From: Bacteroidaceae bacterium
GTDB lineage: Bacteria; Bacteroidota; Bacteroidia; Bacteroidales; Bacteroidaceae
Direction: 5' to 3'
NCBI GenBank assembly: GCA_017552435.1
Contig: JAFZPZ010000005.1
Span: 1-64,000 of the forward strand
Length of the DNA stretch: 64,000 nucleotides
Shown here: positions 1 to 52,986 of the stretch, piece by piece
How the letters are laid out: every line of letters begins with the position of its first letter
Numbering within the stretch: the stretch's first letter is position 1
Position numbers and translations under genes: made by a program
Notes under the pieces: model-generated
The model's database searches: none
What the model saw: only the letters and a program-made list of their open reading frames with translations
What the model was told of the DNA's origin: nothing

Positions 1-140
1 ACGACCCTGACGGCATAAACGTGCCGACAGCAGACAATACCGCTAAAACATTGGGCATCTACGACCTCCTAGGCCGGAAACTCTCTGGCAAGCCTGCCCG
101 GGGAATTTATATCGAAGACGGAAAGAAGAAAGTGAAGTAA
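1..140 (+). CDS. C-terminal end of a secreted protein with a T9SS-type sorting tail (5' partial)
   Basis: Only the last 45 codons are present; the frame is open to the left edge and stops at 138-140. The visible peptide ends IYDLLGRKLSGKPARGIYIE followed by a lysine-rich DGKKKVK. A 'YDL.GRK...GIYI.DGKK' ending is the usual form of the C-terminal sorting domain of proteins exported by the type IX secretion system in Bacteroidota. The catalytic or binding part lies outside the window, so no function can be given. The same kind of tail is seen on the proteins at 2654, 11669, 31969, 34779 and 54999. Confidence 0.8.
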   Translation, partial: DPDGINVPTADNTAKTLGIYDLLGRKLSGKPARGIYIEDGKKKVK

Positions 141-177
141 AGGGCTCCTATCAGACCCCGCCGGAAATCAGGGAAGC

Positions 178-387
178 CAAATAGGACACTATCTGAGGCC
201 AACTGAGGCTCGGCGGAGTCAAATAGGATACTATTTGTTAACACCCGTTAACAGTTCGGCTCAAATAGGAAACTATATGTTAACACCCGTTAACAATTCG
301 GCCCAAATAGGATACTATTTATGACAACCTGTGAGCAGTCCGGCTCAAATAGGATACGATTTGAAGTGAAATGTTAAAATCTCTAAC
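178..387. repeat. Five-unit 42-bp phased array of inverted repeats upstream of the DUF6261 gene
   Basis: The heptamer CAAATAG starts at 178, 220, 262, 304 and 346, an exact 42-bp period. Each unit opens with a dyad of the form AAATAG-GATA-CTATTT; the four central bases vary (GACA, GATA, GAAA, GATA, GATA) while the ATAG/CTAT arms hold, except for a C-G-AT change in unit 5. Units 2 and 3 also carry a second dyad, GTTAACACCCGTTAAC, directly after the first; it has decayed in units 1, 4 and 5. Forty-two bp is four helical turns, so all dyads lie on one DNA face. The array ends 15 bp before the start codon at 403. No TAnnTTTG element fits cleanly in it. A multi-site operator or a protein-recruiting array is inferred, not shown. 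Confidence 0.9.
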
Positions 388-402
388 AAATAAATAAACA
401 AT

Positions 403-1344
403 ATGGATATAAATGCAAGACAAATCGGCTATCTGGAATTCAATTATCTGGATCAGTCAGAGACTTATCAGTACAGTGTGGACCAGTTGAGCCGCGTCAA
501 GGCGTGTGCTCCGCTAATGGCCAAGTTAGGCAATGAGGTGGGAGTTTGGGAAACTGCTACGCAGACTTTCGACACAGCCTACCGCAAAAGTTCGACTGAA
601 GCTCAGACCAAGACGCTAAAGACAATCGACGATGAGCGCGATTCGCTCTACAGCGGTCTCGTCGGCACCATCAACAATGCCACCAAGAGCCCGATTGCCG
701 CTCAGGCAACAGCAGCGACCGACCTTTTGGAACCCATCAAGCGCTACGATGTGAAGACCGGAGGCGAATATCAGCAGGAGACTATGCGGATTGACCAGTT
801 CTGTCAGGACCTGCTGGCAAACTACACCTCGCAGCTCACCACGCTCGGTCTGACGGAATGGACGCAGGCTCTGCAGGCCAAGAACCTTGAGTTCCAGGAG
901 GCCATGAGGGCGCGTACCGACGACCAGGCCGGCTTTGTGAAGAGCGAACTCTCCCAGTTGAGGCAGCAGATGATAGCCGCTTTCAATGCTTTCAGGAAGT
1001 TGGCGAACGTGATTTTCATCTACGAAGGCGATACGGCCTACGCCACCACTATCGACCAGATGAATGCCGAAGTGCGGCACTACAAGCAGATTATTGCCCG
1101 CAAAGGCGGCGGAAGTTCCAGCAGCAGCTCCGGCAGCGGTGGGACAGCCTCCCCCGACCCCTCCCAAGGAGGCACAGCCTCCCCCGACCCCTCCCAAGGA
1201 GGGGGGAATGAAGGCGGCGGCGGAGCCTCCCCCGACCCCTCCCAAGGAGGGGAGAACGGTGATACCCCGGGCACCGGCGGTGATTCCGGAGGCGGCGATG
1301 ATAACGGGGATGATAACAATGGCCCCATCGGGGATGCGGAGTAG
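403..1344 (+). CDS. DUF6261 family protein with a palindromic-repeat-encoded tail
   Basis: 313 aa, no signal peptide or membrane segment. Residues 1 to about 230 are a helical domain that I assign to DUF6261, a Bacteroidota-restricted family of unknown function (the ERDSLYSGLVGTI and AATDLLEPIKRYD stretches fit that family as I know it; not searched). Residues 235-313 are a low-complexity tail: a Ser/Gly run, three copies of ASPDPSQGG encoded by three palindromic elements at 1147-1252, then an acidic Gly/Asp-rich end. Family members are usually nearer 230-270 aa, so the tail is extra. The gene stands alone, preceded by the 42-bp array and closed by a strong hairpin. Function unknown; the array suggests tight or unusual regulation. 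Confidence 0.7.
   Translation: MDINARQIGYLEFNYLDQSETYQYSVDQLSRVKACAPLMAKLGNEVGVWETATQTFDTAYRKSSTEAQTKTLKTIDDERDSLYSGLVGTINNATKSPIAAQATAATDLLEPIKRYDVKTGGEYQQETMRIDQFCQDLLANYTSQLTTLGLTEWTQALQAKNLEFQEAMRARTDDQAGFVKSELSQLRQQMIAAFNAFRKLANVIFIYEGDTAYATTIDQMNAEVRHYKQIIARKGGGSSSSSSGSGGTASPDPSQGGTASPDPSQGGGNEGGGGASPDPSQGGENGDTPGTGGDSGGGDDNGDDNNGPIGDAE
1147..1252 (+). repeat. Three plus-oriented palindromic elements in tandem inside the DUF6261 gene
   Basis: Copies at 1147-1172, 1177-1206 and 1225-1252 read GCCTCCCCCGACCCC followed by TCCCAAGGAGG. The first two are exactly 30 bp apart. Each keeps the frame and encodes ASPDPSQGG. They belong to the dispersed GC-rich family found throughout the window. 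Confidence 0.9.
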
Positions 1345-8173: not shown

Positions 8174-8668
8174 ATGGATAATATCAGCTTCCGAACCACC
8201 GTTTTGCCGCTGGGCGATAGGCTCTTCCGCCTGGCTCTTCGCATTACGATGAACAGGGCAGAGGCCGAGGATGTGGTGCAGGACACGCTCTTGAAGGTGT
8301 GGGAGCAGCGCAGCCAGTGGGAGCAGATAGACAATCTCGAAGCGTTCGCAATCGCAACATGCAGGAACAGGGCGCTTGACATCGCGAAACGGGCAGGGCG
8401 GAACACCAAGTCCCTCGACGAAGTTGAGACCTCTCACCTCACACCTCTCACCTCTCAACCTTCATTGGAGGCTCGCGAACAACTCTCTCTCGTCAGAAGG
8501 CTCATGGACGACCTGCCTGAAGTGCAGCGTACAATCATGTTGCTGCGAGACATCGAAGGCAAGACCTATCAGGAGATAGCCGAGGCGCTGGGCATTAGCG
8601 AGACACAAGTCAAGGTCTATTTGCATCGGGCAAGAACTAAAATAAAGAAATGGATTATAAATATATAG
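8174..8668 (+). CDS. ECF-type RNA polymerase sigma factor
   Basis: 164 aa, two-domain sigma-70 family. Region 2 is at about 15-85 ('LFRLALRITMNRAEAEDVVQDTLLKVWEQ', 'AFAIATCRNRALDIAKR') and region 4 at about 108-160 ('LPEVQRTIMLLRDIEGKTYQEIAEALGISETQVKVYLHRARTKIK'). The linker contains ETSHLTPLTSQPS, encoded by a cctctcac-type heptamer tract (8429-8460), so the linker length may vary between strains. The end overlaps the next gene by 19 bp, the usual sigma/anti-sigma layout. Confidence 0.93.
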   Translation: MDNISFRTTVLPLGDRLFRLALRITMNRAEAEDVVQDTLLKVWEQRSQWEQIDNLEAFAIATCRNRALDIAKRAGRNTKSLDEVETSHLTPLTSQPSLEAREQLSLVRRLMDDLPEVQRTIMLLRDIEGKTYQEIAEALGISETQVKVYLHRARTKIKKWIINI

Positions 8669-13898: not shown

Positions 13899-15629
13899 TT
13901 ATTTCCTTATGTAGGCTTTAATCGTCATGCACTCGCCGCCGAGGGGTTTGATGGTGTAGCGGCCGATGCAGGCGGGGATGATGAAGGTCTCGGCATAGTG
14001 CACCTCGAATGGTGCGAACTTGCCGTCGGGACTCTCGATGAGGGCAGCCTCGCCGTCCACGAGGTTGAGGACGTTCACGCCGCCATTGGTGTTGTGCTCT
14101 ACAAGACGGGTGAAGGTGTGCCTTCGTGTCTCGATGAACTCGTTGGGATGCAGGCCGGTCCGTTCTTCCTTGATGCCGTCCTCGTCGCTGAGTACCTCGA
14201 AGTGGTTCGCGATTTCTGCCTTCACGAAAGGCGTGGTGCGCTCCCACTGGATGACGTGCTTGCCTCGCTCCACGTTGATGGGACGCGGTTTGCCGTCCAA
14301 GCCGAGACGTGCCCAGTCCCACAGCTTGAAGGTGAAGATGCTGGGCGTAGAGCTGATTTCCAGCACCATGCTGTTCGCGCCGGAGCAATGGATGGTGCCA
14401 GCCGGGATGAGGTAGTGGTCGTGCTTCTTGGCGGGAAGCTTGTTGACGAACTTCTCTGCATCAAAGAGGATTTCTCCGCGCTGAGCGGCCCGAAGGTCCT
14501 CAATCATTTCCGTTGGATTGATGCCTTCTTTCAGGCCGAGATAGACGACTGCATCCTCTCCTGCATCGAGCAGGTAGTAGCTTTCGTCCTGCGTATAGGG
14601 AAGGCCGAACTCCTTCTGCGCGAACTCGTTGGTGGGATGCACCTGAAGGCTGAGGTTGCCGCCTTGCATCGTGTCGAGGAAGTCGAAGCGGATAGGGAAA
14701 CTCTTGCCGAAGCGCGCCCAAACCTGCTGACCGAGCAACTCGCGGCTGTGAGCCAGCACGACATCCTGCGAAGGCAACTCGAAGAGCGTGTCTTCGGCCT
14801 CGAGGTAGAGGCTGTTCTCCTCCGGCACACAGTCGAAGCACCAGCCGTAGTTCTGTTCTTCGCGAGGCAAGTCGCACACCTCCTTCATCCATTGTCCGCC
14901 CCAAGGCGCAGGGTCGAAGAAAGGCACCACGCGGAAGGGCTTATGAGCCGTGCGTTCCAATCCCTGCCGCATCTGGGCGTCGGTTATCATCTTGGGTTCG
15001 TCGCGCCGGTTCGAGTCAATCCAGAACTGGATGCGTCCGCTCTGCATCAGCTCGTCCTTGTAGCGGTCGATGATGTTCCAGTCGTTGAAATAACCTCTTT
15101 TATATTGTACCGACGGGCTGTCCTCGTGGTTGTCGATGCCCAGTGCCTTCACCTCATGACGGCGGAAGCGTTGCTGAATCTCCCAACGGGCCATATCTGC
15201 GTAGCAGATAATTGACAATTGACAATTGACAATTGACAATTTTTCTGCGACGAATGCCGCGCCAGTGCCAATAATGACGCATGGTTTGTCATTATCAATT
15301 ATCAATTGTCCATTATCAATTTGAAAATATTCGTGCAAACGAATGTTTGAGAGGTATCCGAACAGCACATCGTCCGTCATAAAGCGTTCCGTCAGTTGGC
15401 GGATTTCCTCTTCCGGTCGCATCAGGGAGCGCGTGTCGATGACCTTGCGCCCTGTCTTGGCAAAGGCTTCAAGGAAGTCCTCCTCGTAACAGCCAGGGTA
15501 GAGGTCGATGGCCCAGACGGGTTCGTCCGCCCAAGCCTCGGAGAGCGTCTGGACGATGCCCGCCCAGCCGCAGATGACCTTACCGTCAATGTGCGTACTT
15601 GGTTGCTTGTCGTAATTCGATTTCCTCAT
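13899..15629 (-). CDS. Class I mannose-6-phosphate-isomerase-like enzyme
   Basis: 576 aa from the ATG at 15629; an upstream in-frame start at 15722 is rejected because the promoter (15650-15680) lies between them. The C-terminal 350 residues are the type I phosphomannose isomerase cupin, with 'FFDPAPWGGQWMKEV', 'LSLQVHPTNEFAQKEFGLPYTQDESYYLLDA' and 'HYLIPAGTIHCSGANSMVLEIS', which include the expected zinc ligands (Q-x-H, E, H). The N-terminal 230 residues are a nucleotide-kinase-like extension typical of the long Bacteroidales form. Two octamer tracts (15211-15240 and 15291-15322) are translated inside that extension as KLSIVNCQLSII and QIDNGQLIIDN. First gene of the sugar operon. Confidence 0.85.
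   Translation of the reverse strand: MRKSNYDKQPSTHIDGKVICGWAGIVQTLSEAWADEPVWAIDLYPGCYEEDFLEAFAKTGRKVIDTRSLMRPEEEIRQLTERFMTDDVLFGYLSNIRLHEYFQIDNGQLIIDNDKPCVIIGTGAAFVAEKLSIVNCQLSIICYADMARWEIQQRFRRHEVKALGIDNHEDSPSVQYKRGYFNDWNIIDRYKDELMQSGRIQFWIDSNRRDEPKMITDAQMRQGLERTAHKPFRVVPFFDPAPWGGQWMKEVCDLPREEQNYGWCFDCVPEENSLYLEAEDTLFELPSQDVVLAHSRELLGQQVWARFGKSFPIRFDFLDTMQGGNLSLQVHPTNEFAQKEFGLPYTQDESYYLLDAGEDAVVYLGLKEGINPTEMIEDLRAAQRGEILFDAEKFVNKLPAKKHDHYLIPAGTIHCSGANSMVLEISSTPSIFTFKLWDWARLGLDGKPRPINVERGKHVIQWERTTPFVKAEIANHFEVLSDEDGIKEERTGLHPNEFIETRRHTFTRLVEHNTNGGVNVLNLVDGEAALIESPDGKFAPFEVHYAETFIIPACIGRYTIKPLGGECMTIKAYIRK
15211..15322. repeat. Two octamer tracts inside the isomerase gene
   Basis: 15211-15240 is almost four copies of ATTGACAA; 15291-15322 is a tract of ATTATCAA-type units with one TTGTCCAT variant. 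The two are 50 bp apart, both keep the frame, and the units in one are partly complementary to those in the other. Confidence 0.85.
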
Positions 15630-23120: not shown

Positions 23121-24343
23121 TCGAGTTCTTCATAGCTCGTCGGTACCTTTTCGCCAAGAAGAGCCATCATGCCATCAACATTATCAGTGGCATCTCGGTG
23201 CTTGGTGTGGCGGTTGCTACGATGGCGATGGTGGTGACCCTGAGCGTCTTCAACGGCTTCCAGGACCTTGTGGCCGACCTCTTCACGGCCTTCGATGCAG
23301 AGCTGCGTGTTACTCCGACAGACGGACAGACGGTCAGCGTCAAAGATACCGCTCTGCTGAGGCTCAAGAAGAGCGAAATGGTCGAAGTCTATACACCGGT
23401 ACTTGAGGGACAGGCCCTTGTGGTTCAAGAGGGTCGGCAGCAGGTTGTAACCATCATGGGTGTGGCAGATAACTTCACAAAGCAGTCGCACATCGAGGAT
23501 ATTCTCTATGGCGACGGTTCGTTCATCCTCCATGCCGACGTGTTGGAGTACGGCGTTCTCGGCATACAGCTGGCACAACAGCTCGGTCTTCAGGCCTTCT
23601 TCGAGAACCCACTGCAGATTTATGCTCCCAAGCACGGTGAGCGCGTCAACATCGGCAATCCTCTTTCCTCCTTCAATCACGACGAACTTCAGAGTCCGGG
23701 TGTCGTCTTTATGGTCAGGCAATCGAAATATGACGCGGGGTACATCATCACCAGTTTGCAGTTCGCTCAACGCCTTTTCGACCGAGAGGGTAGGGCTTCG
23801 TCTGTGGAGTTGAAGCTCAAGGAAGGAATCAATCCGGATAAAGCCAAGCAACAGCTACAGACACAGCTCGGTGGCCGCTTCAAAGTGGAGGACCGCTATG
23901 AGCAGCAGAACGACGTCTTCCGCGTCATGCGTATCGAGAAGCTCATTTCCTATGTCTTCCTTTCCTTTATATTATTGGTGGCTTGCTTCAACATCATCGG
24001 CTCGCTTTCAATGCTGATGATAGACAAGCGGCAAGACATCCAGACGCTCAGGAGTCTCGGAGCAACCGATGCCCAGATTTGTACCATCTTCCGACTGGAA
24101 GGGCACATCATCAGCCTGGCGGGAGCTCTACTCGGATTGGTTCTCGGTGCTGCTCTCTGTTGGATTCAGCAGGAGTATGGCTTGGTGACAATGGGCGACA
24201 CCGAAGGCAACTTCATCATAGAGACTTATCCCGTCAGCGTCTATCTGACAGACATCCTTCTCGTCCTTGTCACCGTTCTTGCTGTGGGATGGCTCGCAAT
24301 ATGGTATCCTGTTCGCCATTTGGCGAACAGGATACTGGATTAA
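23072..24343 (+). CDS. FtsX-like ABC permease (LolC/LolE type)
   Basis: 423 aa. Probable inner-membrane subunit of a lipoprotein-releasing ABC transporter. Structure: helix 1 at about 37-60 ('ISGISVLGVAVATMAMVVTLSVFNGFQ'), a periplasmic domain of about 200 residues, then three C-terminal helices ('YVFLSFILLVACFNIIGSLSMLMIDK', 'HIISLAGALLGLVLGAALCW', 'ILLVLVTVLAVGWLAIW') with the FtsX-type 'LRSLGATDAQI' loop. The typical N-terminus is 'xxLEFFIARRYLFAKKS'; here it is preceded by MGNGFGSPLLWRGWGR, from a palindromic element. No ATP-binding subunit is adjacent. The 3' end contains a 13-bp hairpin. Confidence 0.88.
   Translation: MGNGFGSPLLWRGWGRLEFFIARRYLFAKKSHHAINIISGISVLGVAVATMAMVVTLSVFNGFQDLVADLFTAFDAELRVTPTDGQTVSVKDTALLRLKKSEMVEVYTPVLEGQALVVQEGRQQVVTIMGVADNFTKQSHIEDILYGDGSFILHADVLEYGVLGIQLAQQLGLQAFFENPLQIYAPKHGERVNIGNPLSSFNHDELQSPGVVFMVRQSKYDAGYIITSLQFAQRLFDREGRASSVELKLKEGINPDKAKQQLQTQLGGRFKVEDRYEQQNDVFRVMRIEKLISYVFLSFILLVACFNIIGSLSMLMIDKRQDIQTLRSLGATDAQICTIFRLEGHIISLAGALLGLVLGAALCWIQQEYGLVTMGDTEGNFIIETYPVSVYLTDILLVLVTVLAVGWLAIWYPVRHLANRILD
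24305..24334 (+). other. Perfect 13-bp hairpin at the 3' end of the permease gene
   Basis: TATCCTGTTCGCC and GGCGAACAGGATA pair perfectly around ATTT, ending 7 bp before the TAA at 24341. It lies within the codons for YPVRHLANRI. There is no T-run, so it is more likely an mRNA 3'-end stabiliser or attenuator. Confidence 0.6.
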
Positions 24344-24434
24344 GGATTAAAGATTAAAGAATAAAGCTTAAAACAATAACTATCCTGACTTCCAATCAAC
24401 AAAACCTTAATCCTTAATCTCTAATCCCTAATCC
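24337..24434. repeat. Inverted heptamer tracts before the maturase gene
   Basis: 24337-24366 carries GGATTAA-type units; 24404-24434 carries CTTAATC/CTAATCC-type units. The two tracts are complementary, so the intercistronic leader can fold back on itself with the maturase ATG (24435) at its foot. Confidence 0.75.
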
Positions 24435-37157: not shown

Positions 37158-37850
37158 ATGAGGAAGTTCCTGTCAATAATCGCTTTGGCCCTGGCTCCAC
37201 TCGGTCAGGGCCAAACTCTTCAGCCCTCCAGGCAGGCTCCCAGCCCGACGGCCCGGCGGATGGTGGAGCAGGGACTGGTGGACATCCGCGACGTGGACTC
37301 GACCATACAGGTCAGCCTGATGTACAGCCGCGCCGACAACTTCACCGGCAAGGTGCTCTACACCGACCTGCGCGAAGCCTACCTCCACCCCAAGGCGGCA
37401 GCAGCTGTCGCCAAGGCACAGCAGGCCCTCCGCAAAACGAGGCCGGACCTCAGCCTGATAATTTACGACGCCACACGCCCGATGAGCGTCCAGCAGAAGA
37501 TGTGGAACACGGTGGCGGGAACAAAGAAGAGCATCTACGTTAGCAACCCGCGCAACGGCGGCGGCATGCACAACTACGGCCTGGCCGTCGATGTCACACT
37601 CTGCAAGGCCGAGACTGGCGACACACTCGACATGGGCACCAAGGTGGACTACCTCGGTACCTACGCCCACATAGACGATGAGGCAGGACTCGTGGCCCGT
37701 CACATCATCACGCCCCAGGCGAAAAAGAACCGCGAACTGTTGCGGGAGGTAATGACGGAAGCCGGATTCAAACCGCTAAAGACCGAGTGGTGGCACTTCA
37801 ATCTCGTCTCCCGAGCCGAAGCAAAAGCACACTACAAGGCGGTTTACTAA
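37158..37850 (+). CDS. VanX-like D-Ala-D-Ala dipeptidase (M15D)
   Basis: 230 aa. Weak signal peptide (about 1-19, ending GQGQ). Zinc-peptidase motifs of the M15D family: 'LIIYDATRPMSVQQKMW', GGGMHNYGLAVDVTLC (SxHxxGxAxD-type ligands) and the C-terminal KTEWWHFNL, where EWWH supplies the catalytic Glu and last His. In this export context a role in recycling peptidoglycan D-Ala-D-Ala dipeptides is more likely than glycopeptide resistance; no vanH/vanA genes are present. Downstream is a long taatccc-type tract (37851-37918) separating it from the convergent EnvC-like gene. Confidence 0.88.
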   Translation: MRKFLSIIALALAPLGQGQTLQPSRQAPSPTARRMVEQGLVDIRDVDSTIQVSLMYSRADNFTGKVLYTDLREAYLHPKAAAAVAKAQQALRKTRPDLSLIIYDATRPMSVQQKMWNTVAGTKKSIYVSNPRNGGGMHNYGLAVDVTLCKAETGDTLDMGTKVDYLGTYAHIDDEAGLVARHIITPQAKKNRELLREVMTEAGFKPLKTEWWHFNLVSRAEAKAHYKAVY

Positions 37851-37918
37851 TTCTTAATCTCTAATCCCTACTCCCTAATCCTTACTCTCTAATCTCTAAT
37901 CCTTAATCCCTAATCCTA
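37851..37918. repeat. Heptamer tract between convergent genes
   Basis: About nine imperfect copies of TAATCCC/TAATCTC/TACTCCC across the whole gap between the VanX-like and EnvC-like genes. No terminator hairpin is visible here. Confidence 0.8.
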
Positions 37919-39277
37919 TTTCCCTATCCACGCTTCGGGATTGAGTTTCTCGGGCTCTCTCTTGTTGTCTGTCTCCTTGCGGAGCTGGAAGTGAAGGGTA
38001 CAATTGCCGTTGCCGTCGTCGGCAACAGTCCCAAGCAGGTCGCGGGCCTTTACTTTCTGCCCCTTTGCAACAATGACGCTGGAGAGGTTGCAATAGACGG
38101 AGATGAAACTGCCGTGGCGAACCATTACGTGCCGATAGCCTGCAAACTGGAAGACGCTGGTGACGACACCGTCGAAGATGGCGCGGGCACGGGCTCCGGG
38201 ACGACCCACATAGTTCGTCCCCTTGTTGTCCAGCTTCACGCCCGTCATTCCGGGCACATCATATACGCCGAAACGGCTGCCTATCATGTACTGGCCGGTG
38301 ATGGGAACGGGCAGGCGACCCTTGTTCTGCACGAAGTTGCCGTTCAACTGGCGGTCCTCCGCCGTGAGCCATGAACCGGACTTGGGCTTTGCCGGAGCGG
38401 GCTCCTGCTTCTTGCTCCCTGTTCCTGTTCCTGTACCCTGTCCTTTCTTCTTGCGGGCAGCCTCCTCGGCAGCCTTCTTGCGGGCTTCTTCCTCGGCCTT
38501 CTTGCGGGCCTGCTCAATTTCGTAGGCAATCTGCTCGTCTATTTTCTTGTCGAGTGCGGCAAGCTGTTTCTGCTGCTCGGCCACCTTGCCCTGCAACTTG
38601 CTCTCCTGACCCTTCAGGCCGGTCACCTTCTTCCGCTCCTGTACCTGCTGGTCATTCAGATTCTTGCGTTGGAGCATAACCTCGCGCAGAATGTTGCTCT
38701 TCCGACTCTTGGCCTCGAGCAATCGGTTCTGGGCCTCGAGCAGTTCGACCTGCTTTTGGAGAATCTGTTCGCCCAGATTGTGCTGGTACACCACATACTC
38801 GCGGGCATAGCGGGCGCGGCGGTACATCTGGCTGAACGTCTTGGCCGAGAGGACGAAGACCAGCGTGTTGTGGTTCTCGCGCTGTGCCCTGGCGTTGCGG
38901 ACCGCCGCCTTCAGACGGTTGCGACGCAAGCGGACCTCGGCATCGAGCTTGGTGATGTCCTCCTGAAGGCGTGTGATGCTTGTTTCCATCTCGTCGAGCT
39001 CATTTTCCAACTGGTGGATGTGCGTGAGGCGGTTGTTCATCTGCAGTCCGAGGAAATCTACGTTCTGCTGGCCCGTCTTCACCTGCTTCCGGGTTTTGTC
39101 GAGCTGCGCCTTGCTGTTCTGCAACTCCGTCTTGAGCTTGGTCTGTTGCTGCTTCAGTTCCTTCACCTTCTTGCTGTTCTGTGCAGCAAGCGGCAAAGCG
39201 AGCAAGAGAAGGAGGAGAAGAAGTCCCCTGCCTCCTTTAGAGAGTGTGAATTTAACTATTAATTGCTCACTTTTCAT
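37916..39277 (-). CDS. EnvC-like murein hydrolase activator (degenerate LytM/M23 domain)
   Basis: 453 aa. Signal peptide (about 1-33), a long coiled coil at about 35-285 ('KKVKELKQQQTKLKTELQNSKAQLDKTRKQ', 'ALDKKIDEQIAYEIEQARKKAEEEARKK'), a linker, then a LytM-type domain at about 335-450. Zinc ligands look lost: the first motif reads SRFGVYDVPGMTGVKLDNKG (no His or second Asp at the usual places) and the 'YxHL' site is VYCNLSS; only LHFQLR keeps its His. This pattern is that of EnvC-type activators that recruit amidases rather than cut peptidoglycan. Last gene of the sppA-to-envC run, after the DUF4292 lipoprotein gene. A degenerate palindromic element (39223-39245) encodes part of the signal region (FTLSKGGRGLL). 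Confidence 0.82.
   Translation of the reverse strand: MKSEQLIVKFTLSKGGRGLLLLLLLLALPLAAQNSKKVKELKQQQTKLKTELQNSKAQLDKTRKQVKTGQQNVDFLGLQMNNRLTHIHQLENELDEMETSITRLQEDITKLDAEVRLRRNRLKAAVRNARAQRENHNTLVFVLSAKTFSQMYRRARYAREYVVYQHNLGEQILQKQVELLEAQNRLLEAKSRKSNILREVMLQRKNLNDQQVQERKKVTGLKGQESKLQGKVAEQQKQLAALDKKIDEQIAYEIEQARKKAEEEARKKAAEEAARKKKGQGTGTGTGSKKQEPAPAKPKSGSWLTAEDRQLNGNFVQNKGRLPVPITGQYMIGSRFGVYDVPGMTGVKLDNKGTNYVGRPGARARAIFDGVVTSVFQFAGYRHVMVRHGSFISVYCNLSSVIVAKGQKVKARDLLGTVADDGNGNCTLHFQLRKETDNKREPEKLNPEAWIGK
39223..39245 (+). repeat. Degenerate palindromic element in the EnvC-like signal peptide
   Basis: GTCCCCTGCCTCC then TTTAGAGAGT. It encodes the TLSKGGRG segment before the hydrophobic core, in the same place as the SLSFSPLKGGWGI segment of the neighbouring lipoprotein. 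Confidence 0.55.
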
Positions 39278-39298
39278 CTTAATTCTTACCTCTTACTT

Positions 39299-40210
39299 CT
39301 AACCTCTAACCTCTAACCTCAAACCTCTCTCCATACTCATGAGCCGCGCCAGGAGCTTCTCGACCGTCACTTCGGTATAACGCCTCGGAATCTCAGTGCG
39401 TGTCTCCCATCCGCTGTCGTTCCTGAGGTTGGAAAGTGAGAGCGTTGCATTGATGGGCTTGCTACTGCTGATATTGAGAAGATGATGTGTAGGGAAATAC
39501 TTTTTGCCAAGACTGCTAAAATCCATATATCTCCAATCCAGGTAGGGCGAAGCCCCTTCTACATGGGGCGAGATGGTGGTCTGTCGGATGAGTCCCGAGG
39601 CGATGTTGACGGAGAACGAGAGAACGGCCAACCGGCTGTCGTCATTGGTCAGTTTAGCCCTTTCGCCGTCCATAGACTTCTTGAACTGTTTTTCGGTCGG
39701 TGTCGATTTCCCTGCACCAAGCACGAACAAATCATCCCAGAAGAGTGCTTGCAGCGTATAGAAGTCAATGCCGGCACTCTTGAAGAAGGACACATCCCCC
39801 CACGCCGCCTTGACGTACTGCTTGCCCATCTTATCGATGCCCATGAAGTAGTCGGGCGTCATCTCGATGCGAGCCACTTCGATGATGCCAAAGGTGACAA
39901 GGGATAACTGTATGACATCGTTCCGCTTCATGCGCAGCGTACCTCCTATAGACAGGCTCTTGTCGCTGGAAGAGATTCCGATCTTCATCTTCGCAGTGGC
40001 GAAGGTTTCGTCCTGCCGGTTGGCATTGACGGTCTCGACGATGTTCTGCAAGGGAGAGAGACCGCCTTCCGTCCCGTCGGGGAGCACAGCGGAAGAGGAT
40101 GACGCATGCTTCTTGCTGCCGCAGGATGCTAATAGCAGCACGCAGAGTAAAATCCCCCATCCCCCTTTAAGGGGAGAAAAAGAGAGGGAATGGAATATTT
40201 TGTATTTCAT
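39299..40210 (-). CDS. DUF4292 outer-membrane-type lipoprotein
   Basis: 303 aa. Lipobox LLLASCGS with Cys at about residue 30; the signal peptide is extended by SFSPLKGGWGI from a palindromic element. The mature part matches DUF4292, a Bacteroidota family with a LolA/LolB-like half-barrel: 'TFATAKMKIGISSSDKSLSIGGTLRMKRNDVIQLSLVTFGIIEVARIEMTPDYFMGIDKMGKQYVKA'. The last residues (MERGLRLEVRG) come from an acctctaa-type tract. It follows the TPR gene and precedes the EnvC-like gene, a conserved Bacteroidota order, so an envelope-assembly role is likely; exact function unknown. Confidence 0.85.
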   Translation of the reverse strand: MKYKIFHSLSFSPLKGGWGILLCVLLLASCGSKKHASSSSAVLPDGTEGGLSPLQNIVETVNANRQDETFATAKMKIGISSSDKSLSIGGTLRMKRNDVIQLSLVTFGIIEVARIEMTPDYFMGIDKMGKQYVKAAWGDVSFFKSAGIDFYTLQALFWDDLFVLGAGKSTPTEKQFKKSMDGERAKLTNDDSRLAVLSFSVNIASGLIRQTTISPHVEGASPYLDWRYMDFSSLGKKYFPTHHLLNISSSKPINATLSLSNLRNDSGWETRTEIPRRYTEVTVEKLLARLMSMERGLRLEVRG

Positions 40211-52060: not shown

Positions 52061-52101
52061 AAAAAAACTTAATCTCTAATCTTTAATCCCTAATCTTTTC
52101 T

Positions 52102-52122
52102 TATCTTTGCACTGCAAAAGTA
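52102..52122. promoter_or_regulatory. Face-to-face -7 elements for rsmA and the flippase gene
   Basis: Plus strand TATCTTTG at 52102-52109 (toward rsmA) and minus strand TACTTTTG at 52122-52115 (toward the flippase gene) are 5 bp apart and point at each other. Neither has a clear TTTG partner. Confidence 0.45.
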
Positions 52123-52152
52123 CAACAAAAAGTGAAAAGAGAAAAGTGAAAA

Positions 52153-52986
52153 GTGAAAAATTATAAGTCAGTCAAGCCGAAAAAGTTCCTCGGACAGCAC
52201 TTTTTGACCGATTTGAGCATCGCCAGCGCTATTGCCGACACAGTAGATGCCTGTCCTGGACTTCCAATATTGGAGGTCGGACCGGGTATGGGTGTGATGA
52301 CACAGTTCTTAATTCGAAAACCGCGCGAAGTAAAGGTTGTGGAGATCGACTACGAGAGTGTGGAATATCTGCGCCATACCTATCCTGAACTTGAGGATAG
52401 TATCATCGAGGATGACTTCCTGAAGATGCACTTGGAACGCACTTTTGGAGGTTCTCCTTTCGTACTGACGGGCAATTATCCCTACAACATCTCCAGTCAG
52501 ATCTTTTTCAAGATGCTCGACTACAAGGAGCTGATTCCCTGTTGTACGGGCATGATACAGAAAGAGGTGGCGGAGCGTATGGCTGCCGGGCCTGGCAGCA
52601 AGACATATGGCATTCTGAGCATACTCATTCAGGCATGGTACAACGTCGAATACCTTTTTACTGTCGAGCCTGGCGTCTTCAACCCGCCACCAAAAGTGCG
52701 TAGCGCTGTCATACGTCTTACACGCAACAGCACTACCTCACTTGGTTGCGACGAGAAACTCTTCCGACGTCTCGTTAAGACAACTTTCAACCAGCGCCGC
52801 AAGACGCTGCGCAACAACATTCGTCCCTTGCTGTCACAATTGGAAGCGGAATGCGAGAAGAGGCCTAACTTTAGTGCATTACTTTCCGACCCCATTATGA
52901 CGAAGCGGCCCGAGCAACTCAGCGTGCAGGACTTCATTAGCCTTACTTTGCGTCTGCAGACCTGCAGACGCAAAGAGGTAGAGTAG
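52153..52986 (+). CDS. rsmA: 16S rRNA dimethyladenosine transferase
   Basis: 277 aa, starting at GTG 52153, which lies in a gtgaaaag octamer tract; the upstream region offers no ATG. N-terminal 'KKFLGQHFLTD' and AdoMet motif 'ILEVGPGMGVMTQFL', then 'VVEIDYESVEYL', the target-base motif NYPYNIS and 'FNPPPKVRSAVIRL'. Dimethylates two adenosines in helix 45 of 16S rRNA. The C-terminal domain is complete. Its end is 7 bp from the convergent coiled-coil gene; no terminator is seen. Confidence 0.96.
   Translation: MKNYKSVKPKKFLGQHFLTDLSIASAIADTVDACPGLPILEVGPGMGVMTQFLIRKPREVKVVEIDYESVEYLRHTYPELEDSIIEDDFLKMHLERTFGGSPFVLTGNYPYNISSQIFFKMLDYKELIPCCTGMIQKEVAERMAAGPGSKTYGILSILIQAWYNVEYLFTVEPGVFNPPPKVRSAVIRLTRNSTTSLGCDEKLFRRLVKTTFNQRRKTLRNNIRPLLSQLEAECEKRPNFSALLSDPIMTKRPEQLSVQDFISLTLRLQTCRRKEVE

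Follow-up and report, generated by a model that had tools for sequence, protein, structure and literature searches.

Tandem palindromic arrays of fixed period and free sequence accompany DUF6261 genes in Bacteroidota

The window analyzed here, a stretch of 64,000 nucleotides from a Bacteroidaceae genome, opens with a tandem array of 42-bp palindromic units placed directly upstream of a DUF6261 gene, and comparable arrays, held at 41-42 bp and differing in sequence at almost every gene, accompany DUF6261 genes in many genera. The explanation that we favor, with a probability of about 0.4, is that the repeats of the window form the cis copy of a palindrome array which is linked to the gene, phased with the helix and would serve as a DNA docking array. 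Binding of DUF6261 to these arrays, as well as any cellular role, is proposed here from sequence patterns. The main novelty, which was out of sight of the first-pass annotation of the window, is that each gene has its private unit sequence and that copies of it are dispersed elsewhere in the genome. A search of the open-access literature did not return the association between DUF6261 and such arrays.

The array of the window and its gene

The array (178..363, forward strand) comprises 4.4 units of 42 bp and lies in cis to a DUF6261 gene on the same strand (403..1344; Pfam match PF19775, 313 aa, E 1.1e-35), whose product ends in a low-complexity C-terminal tail. It begins 37 bp past the stop codon (138-140) of what is, by eye, likely the tail of a preceding forward-strand open frame entering from the contig edge (1..140), and 39 bp separate its end from the DUF6261 start (403). 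As base 1 of the window is also base 1 of the contig, the upstream side of the array can be read no further.

The first-pass annotation had reported that CAAATAG recurs at 178, 220, 262, 304 and 346 without drift, and a repeat search indeed gives five copies at spacings of 42, 42, 42 and 42 bp. In a dyad pattern search, each copy opens a first dyad, with perfect arms in unit 2 (CAAATAG-GATA-CTATTTG, 220..237) and one mismatch in unit 1 (CAAATAG-GACA-CTATCTG, 178..195), unit 3 (CAAATAG-GAAA-CTATATG, 262..279), unit 4 (CAAATAG-GATA-CTATTTA, 304..321) and unit 5 (CAAATAG-GATA-CGATTTG, 346..363). The ATAG-N4-CTAT core attributed to every unit is found in four of the five, unit 5 reading ATAG-GATA-CGAT. 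The second dyad described for units 2 and 3 was recovered from the sequence and by pattern search as TGTTAAC-ACCC-GTTAACA (236..253 and 278..295), and GTTAACACCCGTTAAC has two exact occurrences (237-252 and 279-294). Past the last unit, a degenerate form of this dyad, TGTTA-N7-TAACA, can be seen by eye (372..388). Of the five units said to extend to 387, the five CAAATAG starts stand, while unit 5 is a poor copy in its second half (364-387), where the degenerate dyad is kept.

The array is real and above chance. TRF reports 219-363 at period 42 with a score of 199, and CAAATAG-N4-CTATTTG, with up to three mismatches, has 10 matches in the window against 1.78 expected, a number reached by 0 of 100 shuffles; the five best matches (0-1 mismatch) are the five array units. 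The best self-match over 126 nt within window positions 1-402 reaches 93, where 500 shuffles gave at most 59, and two or more matches to GTTAACACCCGTTAAC (up to three mismatches) arose in 2 of 100 shuffles.

Other repeats were observed in the window. The low-complexity tail of DUF6261 (1138-1256) is encoded in part by repeats of a CCTCCCCCGACCCCTCCCAAGGAGG element; C/G-rich elements resembling it occur near two other DUF6261 genes of the same genome (L006 and L009), and the tail end GPIGDAE is common to several paralogues there. Moreover, many short tandem repeats of period 7, whose unit sequences differ and which thus again combine fixed length with free sequence, are scattered over the window, including 8429-8457, 15210-15241, 15291-15321, 24338-24434, 37847-37926, 39277-39328 and 52069-52159, among others.

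Arrays are associated with DUF6261 genes

PF19775 is patchily distributed, with matches in 3 of 31 genomes of the genus, 46 of 393 of the order and 6 of 296 of the phylum (the window's own genome being part of each count), and it is often multicopy, with 38 matches in G225, a single-contig genome of 4.3 Mb (one match having an in-frame stop), 33 in G311 and 19 in G123. The locus set comprised 141 loci: 10 from the window's own genome, 2 from the genus and 129 among the stronger matches listed from the 393 order genomes. L055 and L074 are identical copies, some other loci are close relatives, and gene starts were set by rule, wrongly in at least L028.

Upstream periodicity was scored by a lag test over lags 15-100 against the 99% shuffle level, in 138 of the 141 loci (three being too short upstream). 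This level was exceeded at 105 of 138 loci, and at 100 of them the best lag was 41, 42, 82, 83 or 84; among the 124 controls taken further upstream, 7 gave such lags (41 or 42 in four cases), and of the 138 inside the genes, 0 did. The 33 other loci are without a significant upstream array in this test, and ten of them have a best lag of 40-43. Outside the order, where seven loci were available (five from the same class, two from another), a lag of 41, 42, 82 or 83 was best in six, four of them above threshold. The first-pass annotation had made its proposal depend on other DUF6261 genes carrying such arrays: they do, 100 of the 138 loci showing lags of about 42 or 84.

TRF delineated arrays of about 2-10 units at 88 of the 141 loci, with period 41 at 49, 42 at 37 and 83 at 2, after a period filter of 40.7-42.3 bp per unit. 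This filter preceded the TRF locus survey, dyad scores, folding and skew measurements, pattern symmetry and array similarity, and it was applied to the cis arrays in the compensation and step-length analyses; unbiased evidence on the period hence comes from the lag scan, from trans arrays, located away from DUF6261 genes, and from an all-period survey of G225 stretches chosen around DUF6261 genes. In these stretches, 16 of 22 DUF6261 genes have an array of the 41/42 type within 700 bp and 18 when periods 40 and 43 are added; among the other four genes, one has its 5' side beyond the stretch. Arrays are 5' of the gene at most DUF6261 loci and 3' at five (of 131 with at least 400 bp on that side) as well as at L035. 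Two cultured hosts carry both gene and array, namely Prevotella nigrescens (WP_004367630.1, period 41) and Parabacteroides distasonis (WP_005857779.1, period 42). In 400 kb of G357, a genome with no DUF6261 match, tandem repeats of other periods are present and none of period 40-44 was found.

The assembly to which the window belongs (G000; 3.5 Mb, 129 contigs, 88% complete) has ten DUF6261 matches above the family cut-off. Six other genes readable upstream have 5' arrays, of period 42 at L004, L005 and L009 and of period 41 at L006, L007 and L012; at L010/L035 the array is 3' of the gene instead, and L033 barely clears the lag test at 41 (39 against a threshold of 38). Each gene has its own unit sequence. 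The nearest sister array, at L012, has its architecture in common with the window array, CAAATAG/CTATTTG corresponding to CATATCG/CGATATG and TGTTAAC/GTTAACA to TGTTAAG/CTTAACA, and in a comparison of a single chosen unit from either array, all three altered base pairs have changed in both arms. Several contigs of this assembly (among C63, C87, C91, C95, C25 and C66) begin or end in or just 5' of DUF6261 genes, so that array repeats probably break the assembly and hide arrays. The unrelated arrays of L004 (~1216-1263) and L007 (~1150-1198) have in common a short leader directly 5' of the array, AAAGACTCGCGCCCTCCGCCGG, which can be read as ...KDSRPPP.

A length ruler, private sequences and conserved palindromes

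Trans arrays are particularly informative on the period, having been picked by sequence match and not by period. With steps of 36-47 bp allowed, their units are spaced by 40 (3), 41 (93), 42 (130) or 43 bp (7); in the period-chosen cis arrays, the corresponding steps are 40 (3), 41 (199), 42 (127) and 43 bp (2). Step lengths are mixed in 13 of 67 cis arrays, which indicates that single-base indels occur and that larger drift is rare. The arrays thus follow a length ruler of 41-42 bp, with 40 or 43 as rare exceptions. DUF6261 genes of G225 also have periods 40 and 43, and 21, 22, 44 and 66 are met elsewhere in this genome; examples of arrays of period 22, 44, 66, 42 or 21 away from DUF6261 genes are L179:16578-16817, L171:911-1081, L177:17231-17514 and L173:19025-19337. 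Coding repeats, 42 bp being 14 codons, were ruled out since period 41 breaks the frame and is the commonest (49 of 88). At about 10.4 bp per turn of B-DNA, a mean unit of about 41.5 bp spans about four turns; equating 42 bp with four turns, as had been proposed, holds in the sense that a period of 41-42 bp can reasonably be read as whole-turn phasing.

Regarding the sequence of the units, it differs at almost every DUF6261 gene. Array similarity, an ungapped measure that underrates arrays differing by indels, is at background (mean 0.44) for proteins less than 40% identical, and among 12 protein pairs at least 75% identical it reaches 0.65 or more in five, the lowest value being 0.41 at 83% identity. 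For proteins 83-90% identical, arrays can be as little as 41-51% alike on this ungapped scale, as illustrated by L113/L119 (proteins 90% identical, arrays 0.51). In the recent paralogue pairs L113/L119 and L098/L102, the gene and the stretch 5' of the array are 81-87% identical, and no homology was found across the array lying between these conserved flanks. Between L110 and L113 (96% identical), the alignment runs on through the array, at 90% along the entire stretch, though their consensus similarity is 0.68. Within arrays, units are homogenized and copy number is variable. In ten close protein pairs inspected by eye, substitutions are scattered with no evident cluster that would mark a specificity region. 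Array turnover between close proteins makes it unlikely that DUF6261 reads exact bases, and we consider sequence-specific reading of the arrays by this protein doubtful; a few specificity-changing substitutions may nevertheless be present.

Under this sequence freedom, palindromy is kept. A best dyad score of at least 6 was reached by 52 of the 86 unit consensuses and by 19% of shuffles, so that strong dyads are frequent without being universal; taken over the whole pattern, dyad symmetry exceeds the 95% null level in 39 of the 86 units. A peak in dyad-centre spacing at 20.5 bp is partly an artefact, the same arms being counted both ways round the circular unit, and we therefore relied on whole-pattern symmetry instead. 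Among 58 related unit pairs, substitutions amount to 7.7% in arms against 21.8% elsewhere, and nine base pairs are compensated against about 0.9 expected if changes are independent, with arrays recurring among the 58 pairs; 46 arm pairs changed on one side or without staying complementary. The clearest case opposes the trans array L237 (AATTATGCATGCATAATT) to the cis array L179 (AAATCCCCATGGGGATTT), with four compensated pairs and much of the remaining unit in common. Palindrome arms are hence conserved and compensated, and dyads and period appear from these comparisons to be under clear constraint. The lag test, unit symmetry and compensated arms together bear out the earlier expectation that period and dyad symmetry are conserved in relatives.

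Matching arrays are dispersed in most of the genomes tested

In the fetched stretches of G225, three arrays without a DUF6261 gene each match one DUF6261-linked array. A whole-genome search with the middles of 18 cis arrays of G225 returned 22 further arrays for 10 of the 18, with 0-4 trans arrays per queried cis array, none of them near any of the 38 listed DUF6261 matches. Trans matches were likewise obtained for 5 of 8 cis arrays in G311 (clear), 3 of 5 in G382 (one at contig ends only), 2 of 5 in G059 (clear), 2 of 4 in G249, 1 of 2 in G071 and 1 of 1 in G403. Sequence-matched arrays are thus present elsewhere in seven of the eight genomes tested; in the window's own assembly, with 40 of 55 candidates scored and 88% completeness, eight queried cis arrays gave no clear trans array bar one 25-nt match.

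With our own HMM, no DUF6261 gene was found within about 2 kb beside 43 of 43 fetched trans arrays, 40 of them scanned over flanks of mostly ~2.2-2.6 kb per side and three in 20-kb stretches where the nearest DUF6261 gene is at least 4.8 kb away. The fetched set covers all trans arrays except G382 C125, C2 and C47, G249 C2, G059 C33, and G225 2313k and 868k; two trans arrays of L038 are at contig ends and could precede a gene. By simple ORF calling, the 43 trans arrays lie between genes in the same direction (24), convergent (14) or divergent (5, by script), a gene 3' end adjoining 38 of them. In G225, convergent placement (10 of 23, nine by script and L182 corrected by hand) exceeds the 16% background (p 0.002). 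Ten proteins encoded beside trans arrays were scanned; their families are all different and no pattern emerged. One trans array (L252, G249:C5:102000-107000) is located between paralogous genes of 383 codons that are 74% identical.

Of 16 pairs of cis and trans loci, 11 lose homology no more than ~20 bp from the array edge and 5 retain it further out. One fetched trans locus is kept in synteny between G225 and G311, and its array is made up of two unit types set in phase at 42 bp. At two other trans sites, G311 and G123 are without an array beside the flanking gene, one flank being matched and the empty site hence not fully shown; arrays of the L175 family are at other places in G311, one of them ~200 bp 5' of a DUF6261 match.

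Signatures of DNA or RNA

The stretch 5' of the arrays is rich in promoter-like TAnnTTTG boxes on the sense strand, with 24 observed for 9.2 expected, and not on the opposite one (10 for 11.9), so that many cis arrays are probably transcribed. On the sense strand, these boxes number 0 inside arrays against 4.4 expected and 9 against 9.3 in the gap between array and gene; at some loci, such as L043, L082, L080 and L066, a box lies in this gap. The sense strand of the arrays is moreover skewed towards A over T (mean 0.084, p 0.0004), as are, at lower values, the gap (0.054) and the upstream flank (0.058). Folding is nearly the same on both strands, the sense fold being lower than the antisense one at 33 of 88 arrays (p 0.08) with mean z of -2.20 and -2.18, and the sense strand shows no excess of G-U pairs (0.093 against 0.121). 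By hand count, trans arrays of G225 between same-direction genes are parallel to transcription in four cases and antiparallel in six, two of them matching both strands. RNA hairpins as the main reading were set aside since the strand-folding tests are negative, and the boxes keep RNA as a rival. DNA is probably the level at which the arrays act.

The DUF6261 protein

In an alignment of 98 members, in all of which Pfam recognizes DUF6261, three residues are nearly invariant (D76, R79 and D80). The structural model derived from this alignment is of high confidence and made of helices with no strand (mean pLDDT 94.7, pTM 0.77). Searched against PDB and BFVD, it returned nothing at E of 0.001 or below, the weak matches listed being largely helical bundles and coiled coils, and the best sequence-profile match in PDB has an E of 0.12. 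Among the 25 of 150 weakly matched Pfam families that were listed, none is a transposase, DNA-binding or ribonuclease family. DUF6261 proteins are mostly acidic, with a median pI of 6.0 and 25 of 140 above 8. By these sequence and model comparisons, DUF6261 does not appear to be a known nuclease, transposase or helix-turn-helix protein, and, acidic overall, it may contact DNA through a local surface, an oligomer or a partner, or not at all. A phage or defence origin was also considered and rejected: the window array has no DNA match in a phage collection and PADLOC gave no match below E 0.01 for five proteins. One query against viral contigs returned no relative; one unannotated 4.2 kb 'Bacteriophage sp.' record holds a DUF6261 relative.

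Discussion

In the docking-array explanation, the arrays would be double-stranded DNA sites on which a two-fold symmetric assembly, most likely containing the all-alpha DUF6261, would align on one face of the helix, recognition relying on dyad geometry and spacing more than on exact bases. The cis array would tether this assembly at its own gene, which it may autoregulate, and the dispersed arrays would be further sites of the same assembly, spreading and turning over much like REP elements. In the window, the product of 403-1344 would act on the array at 178-363. Going further, one can imagine an orthogonal DNA address system, in which each DUF6261 would be devoted to its private cis array and to matching arrays between other genes, dozens of such networks organizing, bridging or marking the chromosome; we regard it as conceivable and rather unlikely. 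In such a system, the proteins would recognize dyad geometry and spacing, and the sequence identity of cis and trans arrays would be maintained through copying or pairing.

Several other explanations have to be weighed. The arrays might be REP-like or satellite-like mobile DNA, with DUF6261 aiding their copying, movement or maintenance and the dispersed copies rendering no service to the cell. The loss of cis-trans homology no more than about 20 bp from the array edge in 11 of 16 pairs, the absence of an array in sister species at two trans sites (beside a single matched flanking gene), the unlike arrays between like flanks in L113/L119 and L098/L102, and the convergent enrichment in G225 (10 of 23 against 16%, p 0.002), a placement like that of REP elements, all speak for it. 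However, no transposase or nuclease family or fold was found for DUF6261, dyads and period are under clear constraint, one trans array is syntenic in two species and homology continues beyond the array in 5 of 16 pairs, and we judge this explanation conceivable and rather unlikely. The arrays might instead act as RNA, either through a leader or small RNA that carries the repeats of the cis array, on the model of type III toxin-antitoxin systems, or through an antisense network in which trans arrays lie in 3' UTRs. Sense-strand boxes (24 against 9.2), the A-over-T skew and a repeat number and place resembling ToxI arrays are consistent with such a role and, as many arrays are nearly their own reverse complement, their orientation-blindness is compatible with RNA pairing. 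Equal folding of sense and antisense strands, the lack of G-U enrichment in the sense strand, unrelated repeats between close proteins and boxes sitting between array and gene at some loci (L043, L082, L080, L066) nevertheless make it unlikely.

The first-pass annotation had suggested a dedicated regulator or a self-binding DNA protein at its own gene. That the array is real, general and beside the gene stands; the mechanism is partly supported, as sequence turnover, 3' arrays at a few loci, trans arrays beside unrelated genes, the mostly acidic nature of DUF6261 and the absence of a recognizable DNA-binding domain or fold in our searches fit it poorly. In its classical form, an operator array that a regulator, DUF6261 or another, reads by sequence for the control of the DUF6261 gene only, it accounts for phased dyads placed directly 5' of the gene at most sampled loci, yet it is improbable in view of the turnover between near-identical proteins, the 3' arrays, the dispersed arrays beside unrelated genes and the rarity of divergent-gene placement (5 of 43). 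Finally, neutral minisatellites produced by replication slippage, with the period as a by-product, would explain homogenized arrays of varying copy number, and can be considered very improbable given one period for unrelated sequences in many genera, no 40-44 array in 400 kb of a genome without DUF6261 (G357), conserved and compensated arms, and matching cis and trans copies.

These arrays matter because, across many genera of a phylum that is common in the gut, a gene family of unknown function comes with non-coding arrays of fixed length and free sequence. Such a combination is rare and testable, and it suggests selection on a physical ruler, for which the DNA helix is the simplest candidate. 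It provides the first functional lead for DUF6261. If the dispersed arrays are sites of the same protein, bacteria would possess a chromosome-marking or satellite system with many channels, different from REP, CRISPR and toxin-antitoxin repeats. With gene and array both present in cultured bacteria, namely Parabacteroides distasonis and Prevotella nigrescens, the system is open to testing now.

Comparison with known systems

REP elements occur as several families per genome and are placed at gene 3' ends; REPs usually exceed 100 copies per genome. REP/BIME elements, which go with REP-associated tyrosine transposases (RAYT), are described as extragenic palindromes whose cognate gene lies beside its own repeats and whose palindromes are kept by complementary mutations (PMC2817692). 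The palindromes of DUF6261 arrays are also kept by complementary mutation (9 against ~0.9; 7.7% against 21.8%) and, in the genomes tested other than G000, cognate arrays are dispersed in extragenic space. In contrast, DUF6261 showed no Y1/HUH tyrosine transposase domain or fold (among the Pfam families listed and in the all-alpha model), its arrays are usually on one side only whereas the RAYT gene is flanked on both sides by inverted repeats, the tandem period is strict (41-42 bp), each array family has few copies (0-4 trans arrays found for a queried array in G225) and the host phylum is Bacteroidota. Since two defining features of REP/RAYT were looked for and not found, DUF6261 arrays are not filed under this system, though its logic is the nearest.

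In type III toxin-antitoxin systems (ToxIN, CptIN, TenpIN), a single gene is directly preceded by tandem repeats a few tens of bp long, as at DUF6261 loci. The latter differ in that no ToxN/CptN/TenpN endoribonuclease is among the Pfam matches listed or in PADLOC (5 proteins), that the model is all-alpha, that near-identical DUF6261 proteins can have unrelated repeats (array similarity of at least 0.65 in 5 of 12 pairs), and that the arrays have no RNA-strand folding signature and have trans matches. Iterons, parS and phased site arrays are tandem dyad sites at whole helical turns beside the gene of their binding protein; DUF6261 repeats likewise combine whole helical turns with dyad symmetry, binding being here a proposal, whereas up to dozens of DUF6261 paralogues coexist in one genome (38 in G225), each with its own unit sequence. 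Taken together, the arrays and the matching rows elsewhere point to an undescribed DNA-address or satellite system.
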